The translations under genes and the position numbers were made by a program. DNA of 64,000 nucleotides from Candidatus Bathyarchaeia archaeon (lineage in GTDB: Archaea > Thermoproteota > Bathyarchaeia > Bathyarchaeales > Bathycorpusculaceae), in the NCBI GenBank assembly GCA_038873195.1, contig JAVZEV010000001.1, positions 1,144,490 to 1,208,489 on the forward strand, in the 5' to 3' direction. The notes below the pieces were generated by a model. The model saw only the letters and a list, made by a program, of their open reading frames with translations, did not search any database and was not told where the DNA came from. Shown here one piece after another: positions 18,629-55,382 of this stretch. Position 1 is the first letter of the stretch, and each line of letters starts with the position of its first letter.

Positions 18629-19486
18629 TTGAAGAAAAAATTAAAGATGCTTTTAGCAGAAGTTCTTTCCCCCGACGAATTGCAATCCGTTTGTAACTCC
18701 TATGATATTGTAGGAGACATAGCGATTATACGTGTCTCAGAAGAAGCAAAAATGTTCTGTAAAACCGTAGCCGAAGCTATTATAGCGGTGCATAAAAATG
18801 TCAAAACTGTTTTAGCACAAACAAGCCCAGTTACGGGAGATTTTAGACTTCGAAAACTGGAACATGTTGCTGGTGAAAACAAGACTGTTACAGTTCACAG
18901 AGAATCGGAATGCTTGTTTTCTGTCGATGTTGAGAAATGCTATTTTTCGCCCCGGCTTTTCTTCGAGAGAATGCGGATTGCGAGACTGGTTGAAAATAAC
19001 GAAGTAGTCGTTAACATGTTCGGCGGGGTCGGCTGTTTCTCCATAATTATTGCCAAGCATTCGAACGCTCAAAAAGTCTATTCGATTGATGTTAATCGTG
19101 CAGCAGTTCAGTATTTGGAAGACAATGTCAGGTTGAATAGAGTTTATGGAAAAGTTATCCCTTTATTAGGTGATGCAAAAGAAGTTATTGAAACAAGGCT
19201 ACGCCACATTGCAAATAGAGTTTTGATGCCTCTGCCAGAAAAAGCGCTAGAGTATCTGCCTTATGCCTTATCGACTTTGAAGAAAACCGGTGGATGGATA
19301 CATTTTTACTATTTTGAACATGCCAAGAAAAATGAGAATCCAATCGAAAAAGTTAAGGCGAAAGTCGCAGAAAAACTTGAACACCTTGGTGCTGCCTTCG
19401 AAATCCCATTCGGTCGAGTTGTCAGAACAACTGGTCCAAACTGGTATCAAATAGTTTTAGACATCAAGATAGTCCAGCGAATATGA
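18629..19486 (+). CDS. trm5: tRNA (guanine37-N1)-methyltransferase Trm5 family, 285 aa
   Basis: SAM-dependent Rossmann-fold tRNA methyltransferase. The N-terminal part has SYDIVGDIAIIRV, the conserved opening of the Trm5 D2 domain. SVDVEKCYFSPRLFFERMRIA follows, then SAM motif I NMFGGVGCFSI, the ribose-binding acidic YSIDVNR, and MPLPEKALEYL in the place of the catalytic NLP-type motif. The C-terminus ends with HYYFEH-like and VRTTGPNW elements. The start is TTG 18629 behind AGGAG. The related Taw2 aminocarboxypropyl transferase is the main alternative; EKALEYLPYAL and the D2 opening favour Trm5. Its product feeds Taw1. Confidence 0.85.
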   Translation: MKKKLKMLLAEVLSPDELQSVCNSYDIVGDIAIIRVSEEAKMFCKTVAEAIIAVHKNVKTVLAQTSPVTGDFRLRKLEHVAGENKTVTVHRESECLFSVDVEKCYFSPRLFFERMRIARLVENNEVVVNMFGGVGCFSIIIAKHSNAQKVYSIDVNRAAVQYLEDNVRLNRVYGKVIPLLGDAKEVIETRLRHIANRVLMPLPEKALEYLPYALSTLKKTGGWIHFYYFEHAKKNENPIEKVKAKVAEKLEHLGAAFEIPFGRVVRTTGPNWYQIVLDIKIVQRI

Positions 19487-19847: not shown

Positions 19848-20150
19848 ATGCGAAAATGTGGTCTGGAGGGACAGAAGATCAAAAAGAAACTGATGGAAAT
19901 ATTGGCTTGTCCAATTGACAAGCATCACCCACTGGAATTGCACGTGTTCGAAGAAAAAGCCGAAATAGTTGAAGGCTTAATCGTTTGTCCTAAATGTTTA
20001 AGATGGTATCCAATACGCGACGAGATTCCAGAAATGCTGCCTGACGAATTGCGGAAAGAAGCTGAAGATTTGCCGTTCTTAGAAAAGTGGAAGGAGAAGG
20101 TTCCAGAGAAGGTTCGGCGTGAAGGTAAGCCTTTCAACTTGAAAGGTTAG
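19848..20150 (+). CDS. Trm112-family zinc protein
   Basis: Trm112 is the small activating partner of several SAM-dependent methyltransferases acting on tRNA, rRNA and translation factors. LMEILACPIDKHHPLEL, then LIVCPKCLRWYPIRDEIPEMLP, is the diagnostic pair (C-P-x-D and C-P-x-C). The start is doubtful. ATG 19848 opens the frame, but a strong GGAGGG at 19865-19870 lies inside it. That site would suit an unusual ATC start at 19878, or ATG at 19893, giving the usual short N-terminus. It follows trm5, itself a methyltransferase gene. Confidence 0.88.
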   Translation: MRKCGLEGQKIKKKLMEILACPIDKHHPLELHVFEEKAEIVEGLIVCPKCLRWYPIRDEIPEMLPDELRKEAEDLPFLEKWKEKVPEKVRREGKPFNLKG

Positions 20151-20176: not shown

Positions 20177-21133
20177 TTATTTTAGTTCTACAACTTTGCC
20201 TGTTGCAGAGGATTTCAACGCTGCCTCGGCGATTTGAAGGGCTTTTAAGCCATCCATCCCTGTTATTAGTGGTTTTTCCTTTTTCATGACGCAGTTTGCG
20301 AAGTGTTTAAGCTCAAGTTTCAGTGGTTCTTGCCATGGATATCGCGGCTGCACGGTTTCTTTTGCGTCTTCCACAGTTAATTCTTGTGTGATATAATCCA
20401 GTTTCATTATTGCCGCGCTTCCGGTAACTATTAGTATTCGTGTTTTGTATGGTGTCAGCCAGTTGGACTCAATTAAAGCGCTTTTTCCGCTTTCAAAGGT
20501 AAGCATTATTTGTGCGTAGTCTTCGAATTTTTTGTGTCTCATGTTTCCGGTTTTGGCGTAAACAGCTATTGGCTCCTCATCGAATAAGTATCTCATTACG
20601 TCTATGTCGTGTATGGCTGTGTCTTTAACTACGCCAACGTCGCCTATTCTTTCTGGCCACTGAGAAACTCTCTTTGATGTTGCACATACAATTTCGCCAA
20701 GTGTCTTGTTCTCAACAGCTTTTCTAATGTGCTGTAGTCCAGGAATAAATCGCATTAAAAAGCCGACGGTGAGGTGCAATTTTTCTTTTTTGGCTGTTTC
20801 TAACAGTTTTTCTGCTTGTTTCGTGTTTGCAGCCATGGGCTTCTCAACTAGAACGTGTTTTCCGGCTTTCAGTGCTTTTAGGGCTTCTTTTGCGAGGCTT
20901 GTTGACCATGTGCAAACGCTCACTGCTTCTATATCTTCTCTTTTCAACAGTTTTCCTGTGTTTGTGTAAGGTTTTACTCCGAATTGTTTAGCCACGCTCT
21001 TTGCTTTTTCAGCGTCAATGTCGCAGACGGCTAAAAGTTCTGTCTCTTCTAATTCCTTGAATACTCTGGCGTGGTTTCGTCCCCAGAAGCCTGTTCCAAT
21101 CACTGCTACGCCTAGTTTTTTCATTTTGTCCAC
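20177..21133 (-). CDS. Gfo/Idh/MocA-family oxidoreductase, 318 aa
   Basis: NAD(P)-dependent sugar or nucleotide-sugar dehydrogenase. The N-terminal Rossmann motif is VAVIGTGFWGRNHARVF, followed by the family signature VLVEKPMAANTKQAE with the catalytic lysine of EKP. DTAIHDIDVMRYLF has the conserved aspartates and histidine of the C-terminal domain. It overlaps by 13 nt the next gene upstream (21121-22500), so the two are translationally coupled. With the phosphosugar mutase and nucleotidyltransferase behind, it probably belongs to a UDP-sugar pathway for envelope glycans; the WlbA-type 3-dehydrogenase of UDP-GlcNAcA is one possible role. Confidence 0.87.
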   Translation of the reverse strand: MDKMKKLGVAVIGTGFWGRNHARVFKELEETELLAVCDIDAEKAKSVAKQFGVKPYTNTGKLLKREDIEAVSVCTWSTSLAKEALKALKAGKHVLVEKPMAANTKQAEKLLETAKKEKLHLTVGFLMRFIPGLQHIRKAVENKTLGEIVCATSKRVSQWPERIGDVGVVKDTAIHDIDVMRYLFDEEPIAVYAKTGNMRHKKFEDYAQIMLTFESGKSALIESNWLTPYKTRILIVTGSAAIMKLDYITQELTVEDAKETVQPRYPWQEPLKLELKHFANCVMKKEKPLITGMDGLKALQIAEAALKSSATGKVVELK

Positions 21134-22500
21134 ACTCCTCTTCCTAAGCCACGGTATATGAAGCCTTCCTTTTCAATTTTGTCCGGTTCAACGATTCCCT
21201 CAAAATCGATGATTGCCGCCGGCATTTTCATTAAGACTTTCAGTTTTTTTAAGTTTAGACGTTTAAGTTGTTCGTGTCCCGTGAGTATTAATATGCAGTC
21301 TGCACCTTCTGCAGCTTCAAACAAGTTTCTGCTAAACACGTGATGTATGCCCGATAATTCTTCTCCTGAAAAGTATGGGTCGCAAAGGTTGACTCTGGCG
21401 CCTCTTGCTTCCAGCATTTCAGCGAGTTCTTTTACCATTTTTTTTGGAGTGCCCCTCATGTTTTGTAGTTGTGAAATTCCGAACAAAGAAATTCGCGCTC
21501 GTCTTAACGTTTTTCCACATGTTTTCAAGGCGTCCTTTGTCAAGTTAATTGCGTGTTTAATCATTTCGCCATTTATGTCTCTAGCGATTGCGGGTAAGCG
21601 GAGTTTTGCATCGAGGTTCTCAGCGTCGTCTAATAGCAGATATGGTTTTTCCTGTGTTTCTTCTGGAGTGATTTGTGGGAAAGGAATTGCTGAGTTATTA
21701 CTAGCGTTCGCAAGCTTGCAGACTTCGAGAGTATCTACACCTAATTTTTCGCATAAAACAGCCAACTCATTAACAAGTGCTACATTAACGTCGTGGTGTA
21801 CTGTTTCAAGGAGTGCAGTTGCTTCCGCTACCTTTATGTTTTCTACTTTTCTAACGCCATTCTTTGAAACTTTCTCAAGAATCATCGATGCCGCATTTAA
21901 GCTGTCTTTGTCTGTTGCTGCCACAATTCGTTTATGATTCGCCAATTTTTCTAATGTTTGTCCCTCAAAGATTTGAATTGGACTGTAAGCTAAACCGAAA
22001 TCAGTTCCAACCTTAAGTCCAGAAGTGTTTTCCAAAGTTTCTCTAATTAATCCTTCTATGACGCCGACCCCTGTGGTGCTTACGATAATTACTAAGGCGC
22101 CACGATGAAGACCTAAACCAACTTGTTTGCAGACGCTTTCAATTTCTGAATAATCAGGTTTTTTCTTCTTATCGATTTTCACAGAAGTCGTTATGACCGC
22201 AACATCGCTTTTGGAAGCAGCTGTGCGTATGTCGCTTATTGCGCTTAATAACTCTGTTTTTACGTAGCTCTTCAATTTAAGCTCATTTTCACGCTTTAAA
22301 AAAGGAATTTTTCCCTTTGTTATTGCATTTACTACTGTTTGGTCTGTATCTGCACATGTGACTTTGAATCCCGCCTCAGCAAAAAGGTAGGCGTGGAGAA
22401 TGCCGGTTTCTCTGCAGCCTATTATACTGATTGTATAGTTTCCACATTTTTCTGGCGTGTCGATTTCTTCCGGTTTTATGTTTAGCATTGTTGGTGACAT
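21121..22500 (-). CDS. UDP-sugar dehydrogenase homologue with degenerate active site, 459 aa
   Basis: Overall fold and length match UDP-glucose/UDP-ManNAc dehydrogenases: an N-terminal NAD domain, a central linking helix with VNVALVNELAVLC, and a C-terminal UDP domain with ISLFGISQLQNMRGTPKKM. Key residues are changed. The NAD loop reads GCRETG (28-33) rather than GxGxxG. The catalytic lysine and asparagine of the helix are L230 and V234. The GGxCxPKD catalytic-cysteine motif is absent; the region reads PFPQITPEETQEKPYLLL. It therefore looks like a non-catalytic or re-purposed member. The gene overlaps the Gfo/Idh oxidoreductase gene by 13 nt. Confidence 0.8.
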   Translation of the reverse strand: MSPTMLNIKPEEIDTPEKCGNYTISIIGCRETGILHAYLFAEAGFKVTCADTDQTVVNAITKGKIPFLKRENELKLKSYVKTELLSAISDIRTAASKSDVAVITTSVKIDKKKKPDYSEIESVCKQVGLGLHRGALVIIVSTTGVGVIEGLIRETLENTSGLKVGTDFGLAYSPIQIFEGQTLEKLANHKRIVAATDKDSLNAASMILEKVSKNGVRKVENIKVAEATALLETVHHDVNVALVNELAVLCEKLGVDTLEVCKLANASNNSAIPFPQITPEETQEKPYLLLDDAENLDAKLRLPAIARDINGEMIKHAINLTKDALKTCGKTLRRARISLFGISQLQNMRGTPKKMVKELAEMLEARGARVNLCDPYFSGEELSGIHHVFSRNLFEAAEGADCILILTGHEQLKRLNLKKLKVLMKMPAAIIDFEGIVEPDKIEKEGFIYRGLGRGVWTK

Positions 22501-22539: not shown

Positions 22540-23916
22540 TTAACTCTTCAAACTCTTAATTATTTTTTCTAGTTTTAAGGTGTACTCGCGGACAAGTTCT
22601 TGTGCTTTCTTCTCTGTTTTGGCTTCTGCATACAACCGATAAATGGGTTCTGTTCCGCTTGGGCGAATCAAAATAGAGCTTTTGTCTTCAAACCATATTT
22701 TGACGCCGTCAATAGTGCTTATTCTCAATCCTTTTACTTGCTCAGTCAGCTTTTTCAGAACAGCCTCTTTAAGCGTTTCAGAGCATTCCACTTTGCCTTT
22801 TTCAATAAAATATTTTGGCAAATCTCCAAGAAGCTTTGATAGTTTTTGGCTTGTTTTCGCCATAATGTCTAAAATTAGGGCTGTCGTCATCGCGCCGTCT
22901 CTGACTGATTGGTGCGGTCCATAAAAGACTCCGCCATTTTCTTCTCCGCCAAGTTTTGCCTTCAGTTTTTTCATGGTCTGTGCGACTGTGACGCTTCCAA
23001 CCTTAGTCCATACAAGTTCTCCACCGTAAGCGTCAGCTACGTCCTTAATCAAAGTTGAAGAACTCACGGGCGTGACAATCTTTTCGCCTGGATTTTCTTG
23101 CAAAAAATATTTTTCTATTAACGCGAAGGTTTTGTCTCCCCAGTAAATTTCCCCCTTTTCGTCAACAAAAACTGAACGGTCAGCGTCTCCATCATAGGCT
23201 ACGCCTAAATCTGCACCCACAGCGTCCACGGTTAAAGCTAAATCATTGAGGTTTTCTAGGCGAGGTTCCGGTAATCTTCCCGGGAAGGTTCCGTCAATGT
23301 TTCCGTTTAATGTTGTGATTTTGCACCCTAAATCTCGAAGTAGTTTTGGCGCGGCTAGGTTGCCGACGCTGTTTGCTGCGTCAACAACGATGTGGTAATG
23401 TTTTTTCGCTATTCTTGCAACGTCAACATGTGTTTTTATGGCTTCTACGTAGTCGTCAATTATTCCCGGCAGTTCGTGTGTTTCGCCTAGTTTGTTCCAT
23501 TCTGCGTAGCGTATTTTATCTTGGAAAAATATTTTCTCAATTTCTATTTCTTGTTCGCGAGAAAGTTCGATTCCATCATTCCAAACAACTTTTATTCCAT
23601 TGTATTCTGGTGGATTATGCGACGCGGTTATTATTACTGCGCCGTCTGTTCTTTCTGTTTTGACCGCATATTGTAATGCGGGTGTAGGCGCCATACCAGC
23701 AAAAAGCACGTCACATCCGGTTGCGTTTAACCCAGAAATAACCGCCTTTGCAAGCATTGGACCGCTTGTTCTAGCGTCATATCCAACTATGAGCGTTCCT
23801 CGCTTGAAAAATGTGCCTATTGCGCATCCAATCTTAATCGCAACTTCCGGAGTTAACTCTTTGTTGGCTAATCCGCGGATTCCGTTTGTTCCAAACAAGC
23901 GTTTCGAGCTTTGCAT
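22540..23916 (-). CDS. glmM: Phosphoglucosamine/phosphohexomutase, 458 aa
   Basis: Alpha-D-phosphohexomutase family, converting glucosamine-6-P to glucosamine-1-P (or a related hexose phosphate). LFGTNGIRGLAN opens the protein. The phosphoserine loop is TASHNPPEYNGIK, the metal loop is YDGDADRSVFVD, the sugar-binding loop EENGGVFYG and the phosphate-binding loop RPSGTEPIYRLY. The length is typical. In archaea this family may act on several sugars. It lies 22 nt downstream of the nucleotidyltransferase gene, consistent with an operon making NDP-sugars. Confidence 0.92.
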   Translation of the reverse strand: MQSSKRLFGTNGIRGLANKELTPEVAIKIGCAIGTFFKRGTLIVGYDARTSGPMLAKAVISGLNATGCDVLFAGMAPTPALQYAVKTERTDGAVIITASHNPPEYNGIKVVWNDGIELSREQEIEIEKIFFQDKIRYAEWNKLGETHELPGIIDDYVEAIKTHVDVARIAKKHYHIVVDAANSVGNLAAPKLLRDLGCKITTLNGNIDGTFPGRLPEPRLENLNDLALTVDAVGADLGVAYDGDADRSVFVDEKGEIYWGDKTFALIEKYFLQENPGEKIVTPVSSSTLIKDVADAYGGELVWTKVGSVTVAQTMKKLKAKLGGEENGGVFYGPHQSVRDGAMTTALILDIMAKTSQKLSKLLGDLPKYFIEKGKVECSETLKEAVLKKLTEQVKGLRISTIDGVKIWFEDKSSILIRPSGTEPIYRLYAEAKTEKKAQELVREYTLKLEKIIKSLKS

Positions 23917-23937: not shown

Positions 23938-25035
23938 TTAAGCGATGCATTTTGGCGTTAATACGCTTTCTGAAACTTCCTTTGCAGGGCACACCCATAC
24001 TCCGCTTGCAAGTGACACATCGTCTTTTATTTTTGCGTGGTCTCCTATTACGCATCCTTTTGCAATTTTAACGTTTGCTCCTATAGCCACGTTTTCGCCG
24101 ATTATCGCGTTGTTTATTGTTGAAAAATCAGATATTGCTGTGTCTGGGAAAATCACGGATTCCCGTATTTGAACGCTTTTGCCGACATTAACGTTTCGTC
24201 CTAAAACTGAAAAAGGACCAATGACTGACTTTTCTCCTACTGAAACTCCCTTGTCAAAAGCCACAGGGCTTCTTATCTCAACGTTACCTTTAGTATTCAA
24301 CTTTTGGTGCTTTGCAGCGGAAGACAGCAAAGTCTTGTTAGTTTCCAAATAGTCTTCCGGCTTACCTATATCCGTCCATAAACCATCAAAAACATACCCA
24401 TGAAGTATGCCTTTTTCAGCGAGTTCTGGAAAAACTTCACGTTCAAGAGACACTTTTCTTCCTTCTGGAATGTACTCGAAGATTTCAGGGTTAAAGGCGT
24501 ACACTCCAGCATTTATCAAATCAGACGGAGCCTTTTTACGTTCGGGCTTCTCCACAAACCTCTTTATGCGTCCATTCTCTGCTAGTTCTGCTACTCCGAA
24601 TCTGCTTGGGTCTTCGACCTTATGAAGGGCAATCGTTGCTAAAGCATGCTTCTCTTTATGTCTCTTCAATAATTCAGCATAGTTTACATCAGCAAAAATG
24701 TCTCCGTTTATAACCAAAAAAGATGCGTCATAACCAATTAGTTTCTGAGCCTTCTTTATTGGTCCGCCTGTGCCCAGTGGTTTTCTTAGCGGATCTCGAG
24801 AATAAGTAATGTGTATTCCATGTTTTGGAACCCGTGAAAGTTTAATGAAAGTTTCTGTTTGGTAGCTGACAGCTAACACAACCTCATCTATTCCATTTTT
24901 AGCTAGCCTTTCAAAAGTCCATTCTAACAAGGACTTGTTGACTATTGGAAATAGAATCTTAGGTCTTGTGCAACTCAGCGGTCTCAACCTCGTGCCGAAG
25001 CCTCCAGCAAGAATCAAAGCCTTCAACTTGTTCAC
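23938..25035 (-). CDS. Sugar-1-phosphate nucleotidyltransferase with left-handed beta-helix, 365 aa
   Basis: The N-terminal nucleotidyltransferase domain has the signature LAGGFGTRLRPLSCTRPK, the base-binding PLGTGGPI, the metal aspartate in VINGDIFAD and the sugar site EKP...INAGVYAF. The C-terminal third (from about residue 255) is a hexapeptide left-handed beta-helix (VGEKSVIGPFSVLGRNVNVG). GDP-mannose pyrophosphorylase-like or GlmU-like activity is possible. No full GlmU acetyltransferase motif was recognised. It is the first gene of the four-gene sugar operon, divergent from the creatininase-family gene. Confidence 0.87.
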   Translation of the reverse strand: MNKLKALILAGGFGTRLRPLSCTRPKILFPIVNKSLLEWTFERLAKNGIDEVVLAVSYQTETFIKLSRVPKHGIHITYSRDPLRKPLGTGGPIKKAQKLIGYDASFLVINGDIFADVNYAELLKRHKEKHALATIALHKVEDPSRFGVAELAENGRIKRFVEKPERKKAPSDLINAGVYAFNPEIFEYIPEGRKVSLEREVFPELAEKGILHGYVFDGLWTDIGKPEDYLETNKTLLSSAAKHQKLNTKGNVEIRSPVAFDKGVSVGEKSVIGPFSVLGRNVNVGKSVQIRESVIFPDTAISDFSTINNAIIGENVAIGANVKIAKGCVIGDHAKIKDDVSLASGVWVCPAKEVSESVLTPKCIA

Positions 25036-54278: not shown

Positions 54279-55382
54279 ATGATTCCAATCAATGCCCCAC
54301 AAATAGGAGAAGAAGAAATCAAAGCCGTTGTAAAAGTTCTAAAAAGCGGCATACTAACACATGGACTCGGCGCGGGTCCAATGGTCACACAATTTGAAAA
54401 AAACTTTGCGCATTTCATGAAAGCAAAACACGCAATAGCCATGAACACCGGCACAGGCGCTTTACATTCAACACTCGCTGCGACAGGCATAAAACGTGGA
54501 GACGAAGTCATTCTGCCCAGCTTCACTTTTGTCGCCACCGCAGAAGCCATAGTAATCGCTGGAGCAAAACCAGTCTTCGTCGACATTGACCCAGAAACCT
54601 ACAATATTTCTCCAGAAAAAATTGAAAAAGCCCTAACAAAAAAGACAAAGGCAATAATGCCCGTGGACCTCTACGGTCTGCCCGCCGACATGAAACCAAT
54701 AAGAGAAATCGCAGACAAGCACGGGTTAAAGATTATTGAAGACGCAGCCCAAGCCCACGGCGCAAGCTACAAGGGAAAACCGCCAGGCGCATTCGCTGAC
54801 GCTGCATGTTGGAGTTTCTACGCAAGCAAAAACATGACAACTGGAGAAGGCGGCATGGTAACCACTAACGATGACGAGATTGCGGAGACGCTGCGGTATA
54901 TGCGAAGCCATGGAGAAAAAGAAAAGTATCAATCGCTGATGCTTGGACACAATTATCACATGCCTGAAATGGAAGCCGCCATAGGCTGCGTGCAACTCAA
55001 GAAACTGCCGAAGTTTGTGGCGCAAAGAAGAATGAATGCACGGCGGCTAACAGAAAAACTGAAAAAATCAAAGAAGTTGCAGCTGCCGAAAGAACCAGAA
55101 GGTTACAGGCACAGCTGGTATCTTTACACTGTAAGAATGAAAAACGCAAAACGAACGCAAAGAGACAAGATTGTTGAAGAACTAAAGCGAAAAGGAATAG
55201 GTGCAGTAGTTTGTTACGTGAACCCAATACACCTCATGCCCTACTATCGCAGACTCGGAAAATACCGACTTCCAGAAACAGAAAAAGCCGCGAGCCAAGT
55301 GTTCTCGTTACCAGTTCATCCAAGCGTCACTAAAGAGCAAATTGACTTCATAGCCACTACAGTTCTACATTTGTTAGGTTAG
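54279..55382 (+). CDS. DegT/DnrJ/EryC1-family sugar aminotransferase, 367 aa
   Basis: PLP aminotransferase acting on 3- or 4-keto nucleotide sugars. The internal aldimine lysine is in SFYASKNMTTGEGGMV. FVATAEAIVIAGAKPVFVDI and IIEDAAQAHGA (Asp binding PLP) precede it; SHGEKEKYQSLMLGHNYHMP follows. It has the full length of the family. It is the only sugar-modifying gene in this part. The nucleotide-sugar cluster at 20-25 kb could provide substrates, but the genes are 30 kb apart. The start follows GAAGGCG. Confidence 0.92.
   Translation: MIPINAPQIGEEEIKAVVKVLKSGILTHGLGAGPMVTQFEKNFAHFMKAKHAIAMNTGTGALHSTLAATGIKRGDEVILPSFTFVATAEAIVIAGAKPVFVDIDPETYNISPEKIEKALTKKTKAIMPVDLYGLPADMKPIREIADKHGLKIIEDAAQAHGASYKGKPPGAFADAACWSFYASKNMTTGEGGMVTTNDDEIAETLRYMRSHGEKEKYQSLMLGHNYHMPEMEAAIGCVQLKKLPKFVAQRRMNARRLTEKLKKSKKLQLPKEPEGYRHSWYLYTVRMKNAKRTQRDKIVEELKRKGIGAVVCYVNPIHLMPYYRRLGKYRLPETEKAASQVFSLPVHPSVTKEQIDFIATTVLHLLG

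Follow-up and report, generated by a model that had tools for sequence, protein, structure and literature searches.

A putative pseudoenzyme of the UDP-sugar dehydrogenase family, maintained under selection in Bathyarchaeia

Introduction

What role is left to a relative of the UDP-sugar dehydrogenases whose gene is intact and whose active site is gone? The question is posed by one gene in the window, the 64,000-nucleotide stretch of DNA analyzed here (G000:C1:1144490-1208489), which belongs to a 1.63-Mb archaeal genome. The explanation that we favor, and consider probable, is a vertically inherited pseudoenzyme that serves as a homodimeric scaffold or regulator in an operon for UDP-GlcNAc and lipid-linked glycan, with the adjacent Gfo/Idh oxidoreductase as the first candidate for its partner. 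The active site was lost stepwise, yet the gene stayed intact and under selection in nearly all relatives; hence the protein is probably a non-catalytic partner of other proteins.

Results

The locus and its genes

The gene is the third of four that follow one another on the minus strand: nucleotidyltransferase, GlmM, pseudo-dehydrogenase and Gfo/Idh.

23938..25035, minus strand: sugar-1-phosphate nucleotidyltransferase, the most upstream of the four, whose C-terminus is a left-handed beta-helix (profile matches)
22540..23916, minus strand: phosphoglucosamine mutase GlmM, directly upstream of the pseudo-dehydrogenase (568 bits against a cut-off of 439)
21121..22500, minus strand: pseudo-nucleotide-sugar dehydrogenase, 459 residues, intact open reading frame (Pfam domains, fold, alignment)
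21121..21124, minus strand: ATGA stop/start overlap of the pseudo-dehydrogenase with the downstream gene (read from the sequence)
20177..21133, minus strand: Gfo/Idh oxidoreductase, UDP-GlcNAc 3-dehydrogenase-like, with the likely start ATG at 21124 and with K98 and H175 kept

The translational coupling to an active-looking Gfo/Idh gene, noted in an earlier sequence-only reading, was confirmed. The TGA stop of the pseudo-dehydrogenase (21123-21121) overlaps the Gfo/Idh ATG (21124-21122), an AGGAG at 21139-21135 lies ten bases before that start codon, and the catalytic residues of the Gfo/Idh protein are intact. The best NCBIfam match of this neighbor was NF040723, the archaeal UDP-GlcNAc 3-dehydrogenase, at 319.9 bits. 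Both the order of the operon and the position of the pseudo-dehydrogenase within it are conserved among relatives.

Other genes of the window are of note. Two small plus-strand genes (18629-19486 and 19848-20150) face the end of the operon, as they do in many relatives; by their sequences we take them to be Trm112-like and Trm5-like. A DegT/DnrJ/EryC1 aminotransferase gene on the plus strand (54279-55382; PseC-like, 344 bits, under the cut-off) has no such match of comparable strength anywhere else in the genome, and the aminotransferase could take up the 3-keto sugar that the Gfo/Idh enzyme makes. The segment 48414-51491 presumably holds a pair of electron-transfer flavoprotein genes and, next to them on the opposite strand, a gene that resembles those of acyl-CoA dehydrogenases.

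Fold and family membership

The 459-residue protein carried three UDPG_MGDP_dh Pfam domains, all over their cut-offs (90.9, 39.6 and 53.3 bits), and scored 239.8 with TIGR03026 against a cut-off of 189.8; with NF040825, the model of the archaeal UDP-ManNAc dehydrogenase, it reached 190.3 bits, under the curated cut-off of 750. Its AlphaFold model (pLDDT 91.2, pTM 0.86) matched the P. horikoshii UDP-N-acetylmannosamine dehydrogenase 4r16 with a Z score of 41.4 and an rmsd of 2.0 over 414 residues, and also matched 2uyy (NPAC/GLYR1; Z 20.3). Retention of the UDP-sugar dehydrogenase fold is predicted by this model, and the description of the gene as an intact relative of preserved fold and length held. 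By fold and profile the protein is a member of the superfamily: the family profile and three-domain fold of the nucleotide-sugar 6-dehydrogenases are present, and their catalytic Cys, Lys/Asn and Glu/Asp are all absent. Judged by those residues, it should not bear the name of a nucleotide sugar dehydrogenase as a statement of function, despite a TIGR03026 score over cut-off. That score leads automatic annotation to label the protein as an active nucleotide sugar dehydrogenase, a systematic error by which genomes would credit these archaea with a uronic-acid synthesis that they may lack.

The former active site

The catalytic positions were read from the alignment to 4r16. We take the residues of human UGDH to map onto the 4r16 numbering by motif, and the NAD contacts on the NAD side to be T85, P86, T119 and R326. 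The roles of Lys220, Cys276 and Asp280 of human UGDH, and the trapping of an intermediate by E161Q, are described in the portion of PMC3184952 on which we draw. The altered elements are the following.

22402..22419, minus strand: GCRETG (residues 28-33) in place of GxGxxG, its middle Gly replaced by R30
21976..21978, minus strand: I175 at the position of the catalytic Glu (E151 of 4r16; PER to PIQ)
21814..21816, minus strand: A229 at the position of the catalytic Lys (K204 of 4r16)
21802..21804, minus strand: T233 at the position of the catalytic Asn (N208 of 4r16)
21643..21702, minus strand: residues 267-286, the former sugar-phosphate/catalytic-Cys loop, with the Cys and one Gly deleted and the remainder rewritten
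21196..21207, minus strand: DFEG in place of the DGRN motif

The catalytic C258 of 4r16 lies opposite a gap. Its loop PGIGVGGHCLPKDPY, which pairs with PQI--TPEETQEKPY in the alignment, is rewritten to PQITPEETQEKPY in the window protein, and the catalytic D262 is replaced by K285. The sole catalytic residue retained is T119, as T142; Lys, Asn, Glu, Asp and Cys are all absent. L230 and V234, proposed in the sequence-only reading as the Lys and Asn positions, are off by one; the correctly aligned A229 and T233 are non-catalytic too, and the claim survives despite the numbering. The change to GCRETG in the NAD loop is real in the window and not family-wide, the middle Gly of GxGxxG being retained in 38 of 57 rows. 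The alteration of the GGxCxPKD motif, by deletion and rewriting of the Cys loop, was upheld: a GGxC motif with its Cys occurs in none of the 92 members of the clade, which places the substitutions beyond chance.

Misalignment of the catalytic residues was ruled out by comparison with 57 orthologues and with 17 references that bear the Cys. C261 of the window protein was considered as the catalytic Cys and rejected, as it sits six residues ahead of the loop and is not conserved. One protein, L054_39 (TSKCAQKIP), does carry a Cys at this position but is without the GGxC motif, and was scored as Cys-less. From the missing residues we infer that dehydrogenase activity is absent.

Distribution and order of loss

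A protein search gave a match in 57 of 60 close genomes and in 223 of a 250-genome sample of the class; within the window's own family, 83 of the 86 listed genomes had a match, by a hand count in which the motif was not inspected in every one. The named closest relatives of the protein are nearly all Bathyarchaeota MAGs, and a viral search gave no match.

One supported branch (SH-aLRT 99) separates the 141 distinct homologues into 49 that bear the Cys and 92 that are Cys-less. The number of state changes on this tree was one for Cys, two for Glu, eight for Lys and nine for Asn. For these sets, 71 of 80 homologue loci were extracted. L146 was dropped for its broken frame, and L065, L062 and L058 for a very long branch or a partial sequence; also excluded were L152, 13 Cys-bearing rows and near-duplicates, and new proteins had to have at least 380 residues. 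Two of those left out, L152 and L065 (degenerate, beside a Gfo/Idh gene), would count as Cys-less too. A rooted tree of 134 rows, thinned by 23 further rows, also drew on homologues found elsewhere in the phylum and was rooted on ordinary dehydrogenases; as it came from a quick search with SH-aLRT support only, single forks should not be pressed.

On the rooted tree the Glu was lost first, then the Cys, deleted once, and the Lys and Asn later and repeatedly. The series begins with the ordinary PER/K/N/C set. It is followed by proteins in which PER has become PIR and the Cys is still there (e.g., L140, L286 and L287), then by those from which the Cys is deleted and in which Lys and Asn are still there (e.g., L038, GGH-IPKD; outside the class L280-L283, GGH-LPKD), and finally by those that have lost Lys, Asn and the remainder. 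The refuting evidence named in the sequence-only reading, orthologues that keep the catalytic residues, is half borne out, because distant orthologues retain Lys and Asn and in some cases the Cys. Since early-branching members keep Lys/Asn, and still earlier ones Cys, the loss of the active site is derived.

Two genomes, G042 (L047, L065) and G015 (L034, L014), have two copies; in each, one copy keeps Lys/Asn and has no Gfo/Idh beside it, and the degenerate copy lies beside a Gfo/Idh gene. A separate archaeal group of Cys-bearing sugar-nucleotide dehydrogenases (L161, L163, L156, L158, L171, L147, L289, L290 and L293-L295) has its catalytic Asn changed to Gly (FEG/FKG and similar) and PVY-type motifs in place of PKD. 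The neighborhood of L161 contains GPT, Gfo/Idh, hexapeptide acyltransferase and DegT aminotransferase genes.

Selection and column conservation

Between the two nearest genomes (G000 and G001), dN/dS was 0.092 for the pseudo-dehydrogenase, against values of 0.093 (Gfo/Idh), 0.065 (GlmM) and 0.108 (nucleotidyltransferase) for its operon neighbors; in ten other close pairs the pseudo-dehydrogenase gave 0.10-0.24. The purifying selection on it is strong. That the gene is a pseudogene in decay or was produced by faulty assembly, as the apparently unconstrained variation of the catalytic sites might suggest, is refuted by the dN/dS of 0.09, the match in 57 of 60 relatives and the fixed place in the operon, and we regard it as extremely improbable.

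Where this selection acts was read from 35 reference columns, whose conservation in 28 Cys-bearing rows is 90% or more, in comparison with 47 degenerate rows. The degenerate rows retained 15 of the 35, mostly Rossmann, helix and core positions. The other 20, which include K, N, E, C, D, T and R326, are catalytic or NAD-side positions and have been lost, and the positions of T85, P86, T119 and R326 are not conserved in the degenerate group. Twenty other positions, including R333, R334, E294, K299 and Y172, are newly fixed at 90% or more in the 47 rows. Within the protein, the Lys, Asn and Glu columns stand at entropy percentiles 74-81 and the Thr column at 59; the four ex-catalytic columns together varied more than randomly drawn sets of columns that were once conserved (P 0.02, in a small test with sets of our own choosing). 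Variability peaks in the sugar-phosphate/Cys loop, with a mean entropy of 2.79 bits against 1.68 overall, and the central helix region lies under the overall mean, at 1.55. The pattern is that of a chemistry released from constraint in a protein whose body is not.

Two readings of the protein bear directly on this pattern. The suggestion of a sugar-binding scaffold, in the old sense of binding, was not borne out, the sugar-phosphate loop being the most variable region and the UDP-side DGRN motif being gone. A new enzyme, working with different residues on the old fold, is in our estimate quite improbable. The newly fixed positions could mark a new ligand site or activity, and the Cys-less early branches with Lys and Asn could perhaps carry out a two-electron step, as beta-hydroxyacid dehydrogenases do; against this, the old pocket loop varies most, the T85, P86, T119 and R326 positions are unconserved, and the aligned pocket positions hold no fixed polar set that replaces the catalytic residues.

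Candidate partners

The Gfo/Idh gene lies directly downstream in 71 of the 92 Cys-less proteins, and 56 of these 71 have lost both Lys and Asn; in this count any other residue, Arg included, was scored as a loss. Its product is far better conserved than the pseudo-dehydrogenase, with Lys98 and His175 retained in all 81 aligned sequences (80 and the window's). The pairing is old: a Gfo/Idh gene is also found beside eight of nine PIR/PLR-type homologues from outside the class. It is not obligate. The expectation that the two genes would always be paired failed, since G040 has no Gfo/Idh match at all; G059 and G053 have distant ones only, and G047, G056, G055, G037, G039 and G046 have no close orthologue. 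One whole family is without a close Gfo/Idh orthologue yet has the pseudo-dehydrogenase, and G051 and G045 have a Gfo/Idh gene and no pseudo-dehydrogenase. Where Gfo/Idh is missing, a gene for an MraY/WecA-type phosphoglycosyltransferase was seen directly after the pseudo-dehydrogenase gene (L200, L201, L034, L108, L210, L211 and L048). The loss of Lys/Asn could be compared with Gfo/Idh presence in three independent pairs only on the tree.

Across the row sets used, rate covariation did not single out Gfo/Idh as the partner: its partial r was -0.08 in one set, 0.24 in 28 rows, 0.42 in 43, 0.12 in 39 and -0.03 in 24. The nucleotidyltransferase gave 0.54, 0.32, 0.43, 0.48 and 0.50, and the unrelated control Trm5, where included, 0.20, 0.35, 0.45 and 0.32. 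As Gfo/Idh was not picked out and the control correlated nearly as well as the nucleotidyltransferase, we claim no partner. These values also bear on a different account, in which the protein is a nucleotide-binding regulator, a sensor of sugar nucleotides, that acts on the nucleotidyltransferase/GlmM pair and not with Gfo/Idh. One or both genes of the pair persist in clusters without Gfo/Idh (L200, L202, L203, L210 and L211), and the nucleotidyltransferase had the highest partial correlation among the genes tested in three of the sets (0.54, 0.48 and 0.50). We nonetheless hold a sensor to be unlikely, since this signal is unspecific (with 39 rows Trm5 reached 0.45, and with 28 rows its 0.35 exceeded the 0.32 of the nucleotidyltransferase) and the motifs that contact UDP and NAD are gone.

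There are precedents for a dead paralogue that activates a live one, such as the AdoMetDC prozyme covered by the section of PMC6221367 that we cite, and a Cys-bearing paralogue is also present in some relatives (G012 and G040). A regulatory subunit of this kind, in a hetero-oligomer with an active UDP-sugar dehydrogenase, is nevertheless improbable in the window genome, where a search for an active paralogue found no other gene over the PF03721 cut-off; the pseudo-dehydrogenase was moreover the only match found in 29 of the 60 relatives (hand count). We give this explanation hardly any weight.

Discussion

We therefore return to the scaffold or regulator within the UDP-GlcNAc operon. In this scheme, the ancestor would have been a UDP-sugar 6-dehydrogenase that already adjoined a Gfo/Idh sugar 3-dehydrogenase, and the cluster around the two would have made UDP-GlcNAc and loaded it onto a lipid carrier. 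On the tree Glu, then Cys and then Lys/Asn were lost, with the predicted fold, the intact gene and the operon position kept under strong purifying selection. The present protein would no longer oxidize sugars and may form a scaffold or regulatory subunit, homodimeric or perhaps larger, by which the enzymes of the UDP-GlcNAc branch are held or tuned, the candidates being the adjacent Gfo/Idh 3-dehydrogenase first and the nucleotidyltransferase/GlmM pair second. The dimeric body is suggested by the central-domain dimer of human UGDH, as given in the consulted part of PMC3184952, together with the better than average conservation of that region here.

A broader proposal can be offered only tentatively. 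This near-universal core protein of Bathyarchaeia may be a clade-defining pseudoenzyme that organizes the entry of UDP-GlcNAc into the archaeal surface glycan, and its extant relatives may form a series from active 6-dehydrogenase, by way of Glu-less and Cys-deleted intermediates that keep Lys/Asn (and perhaps a simpler one-step reaction), to proteins with no active site. Were this so, a metabolic enzyme would have turned into a structural or regulatory protein and become fixed in a large archaeal lineage with its intermediates extant, and each protein of the series could serve to test in what order the chemistry of a two-step dehydrogenase is lost. Pseudoenzymes as such are already known. Among open PMC papers, we found no description of one in the UDP-glucose dehydrogenase family or of one in Bathyarchaeia.

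The likeness to known systems is partial in each case. With the UDP-ManNAc dehydrogenase of 4r16 and NF040825 the window protein shares the fold, the three domains, the length and the C-terminal FI[FY]RG[IL]GRG; unlike that enzyme, it is without the catalytic Glu, Lys, Asn, Cys and Asp. The pairing with a Gfo/Idh oxidoreductase is one that we liken to the Wbp system, presumably a WbpA/TviB-type UDP-GlcNAc 6-dehydrogenase with a WbpB-type Gfo/Idh, and the related lineage of L161 resembles it further in its hexapeptide acyltransferase and DegT aminotransferase. The window protein departs from the WbpA/TviB type in lacking the residues for 6-dehydrogenase chemistry, and its Gfo/Idh neighbor has NF040723 as its best NCBIfam match, yet falls under the 450-bit cut-off of that model. 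A precedent for the scaffold is found in NPAC/GLYR1, whose dehydrogenase domain, according to the part of PMC13144531 that treats it, has its catalytic Lys replaced by Met and forms a tetrameric scaffold. NPAC/GLYR1 (2uyy) and the window protein have in common the Rossmann dehydrogenase superfamily, a replaced catalytic Lys and a retained fold; NPAC/GLYR1 differs in being a eukaryotic chromatin factor that binds NAD(P)H tightly and has no UDP-binding domain.
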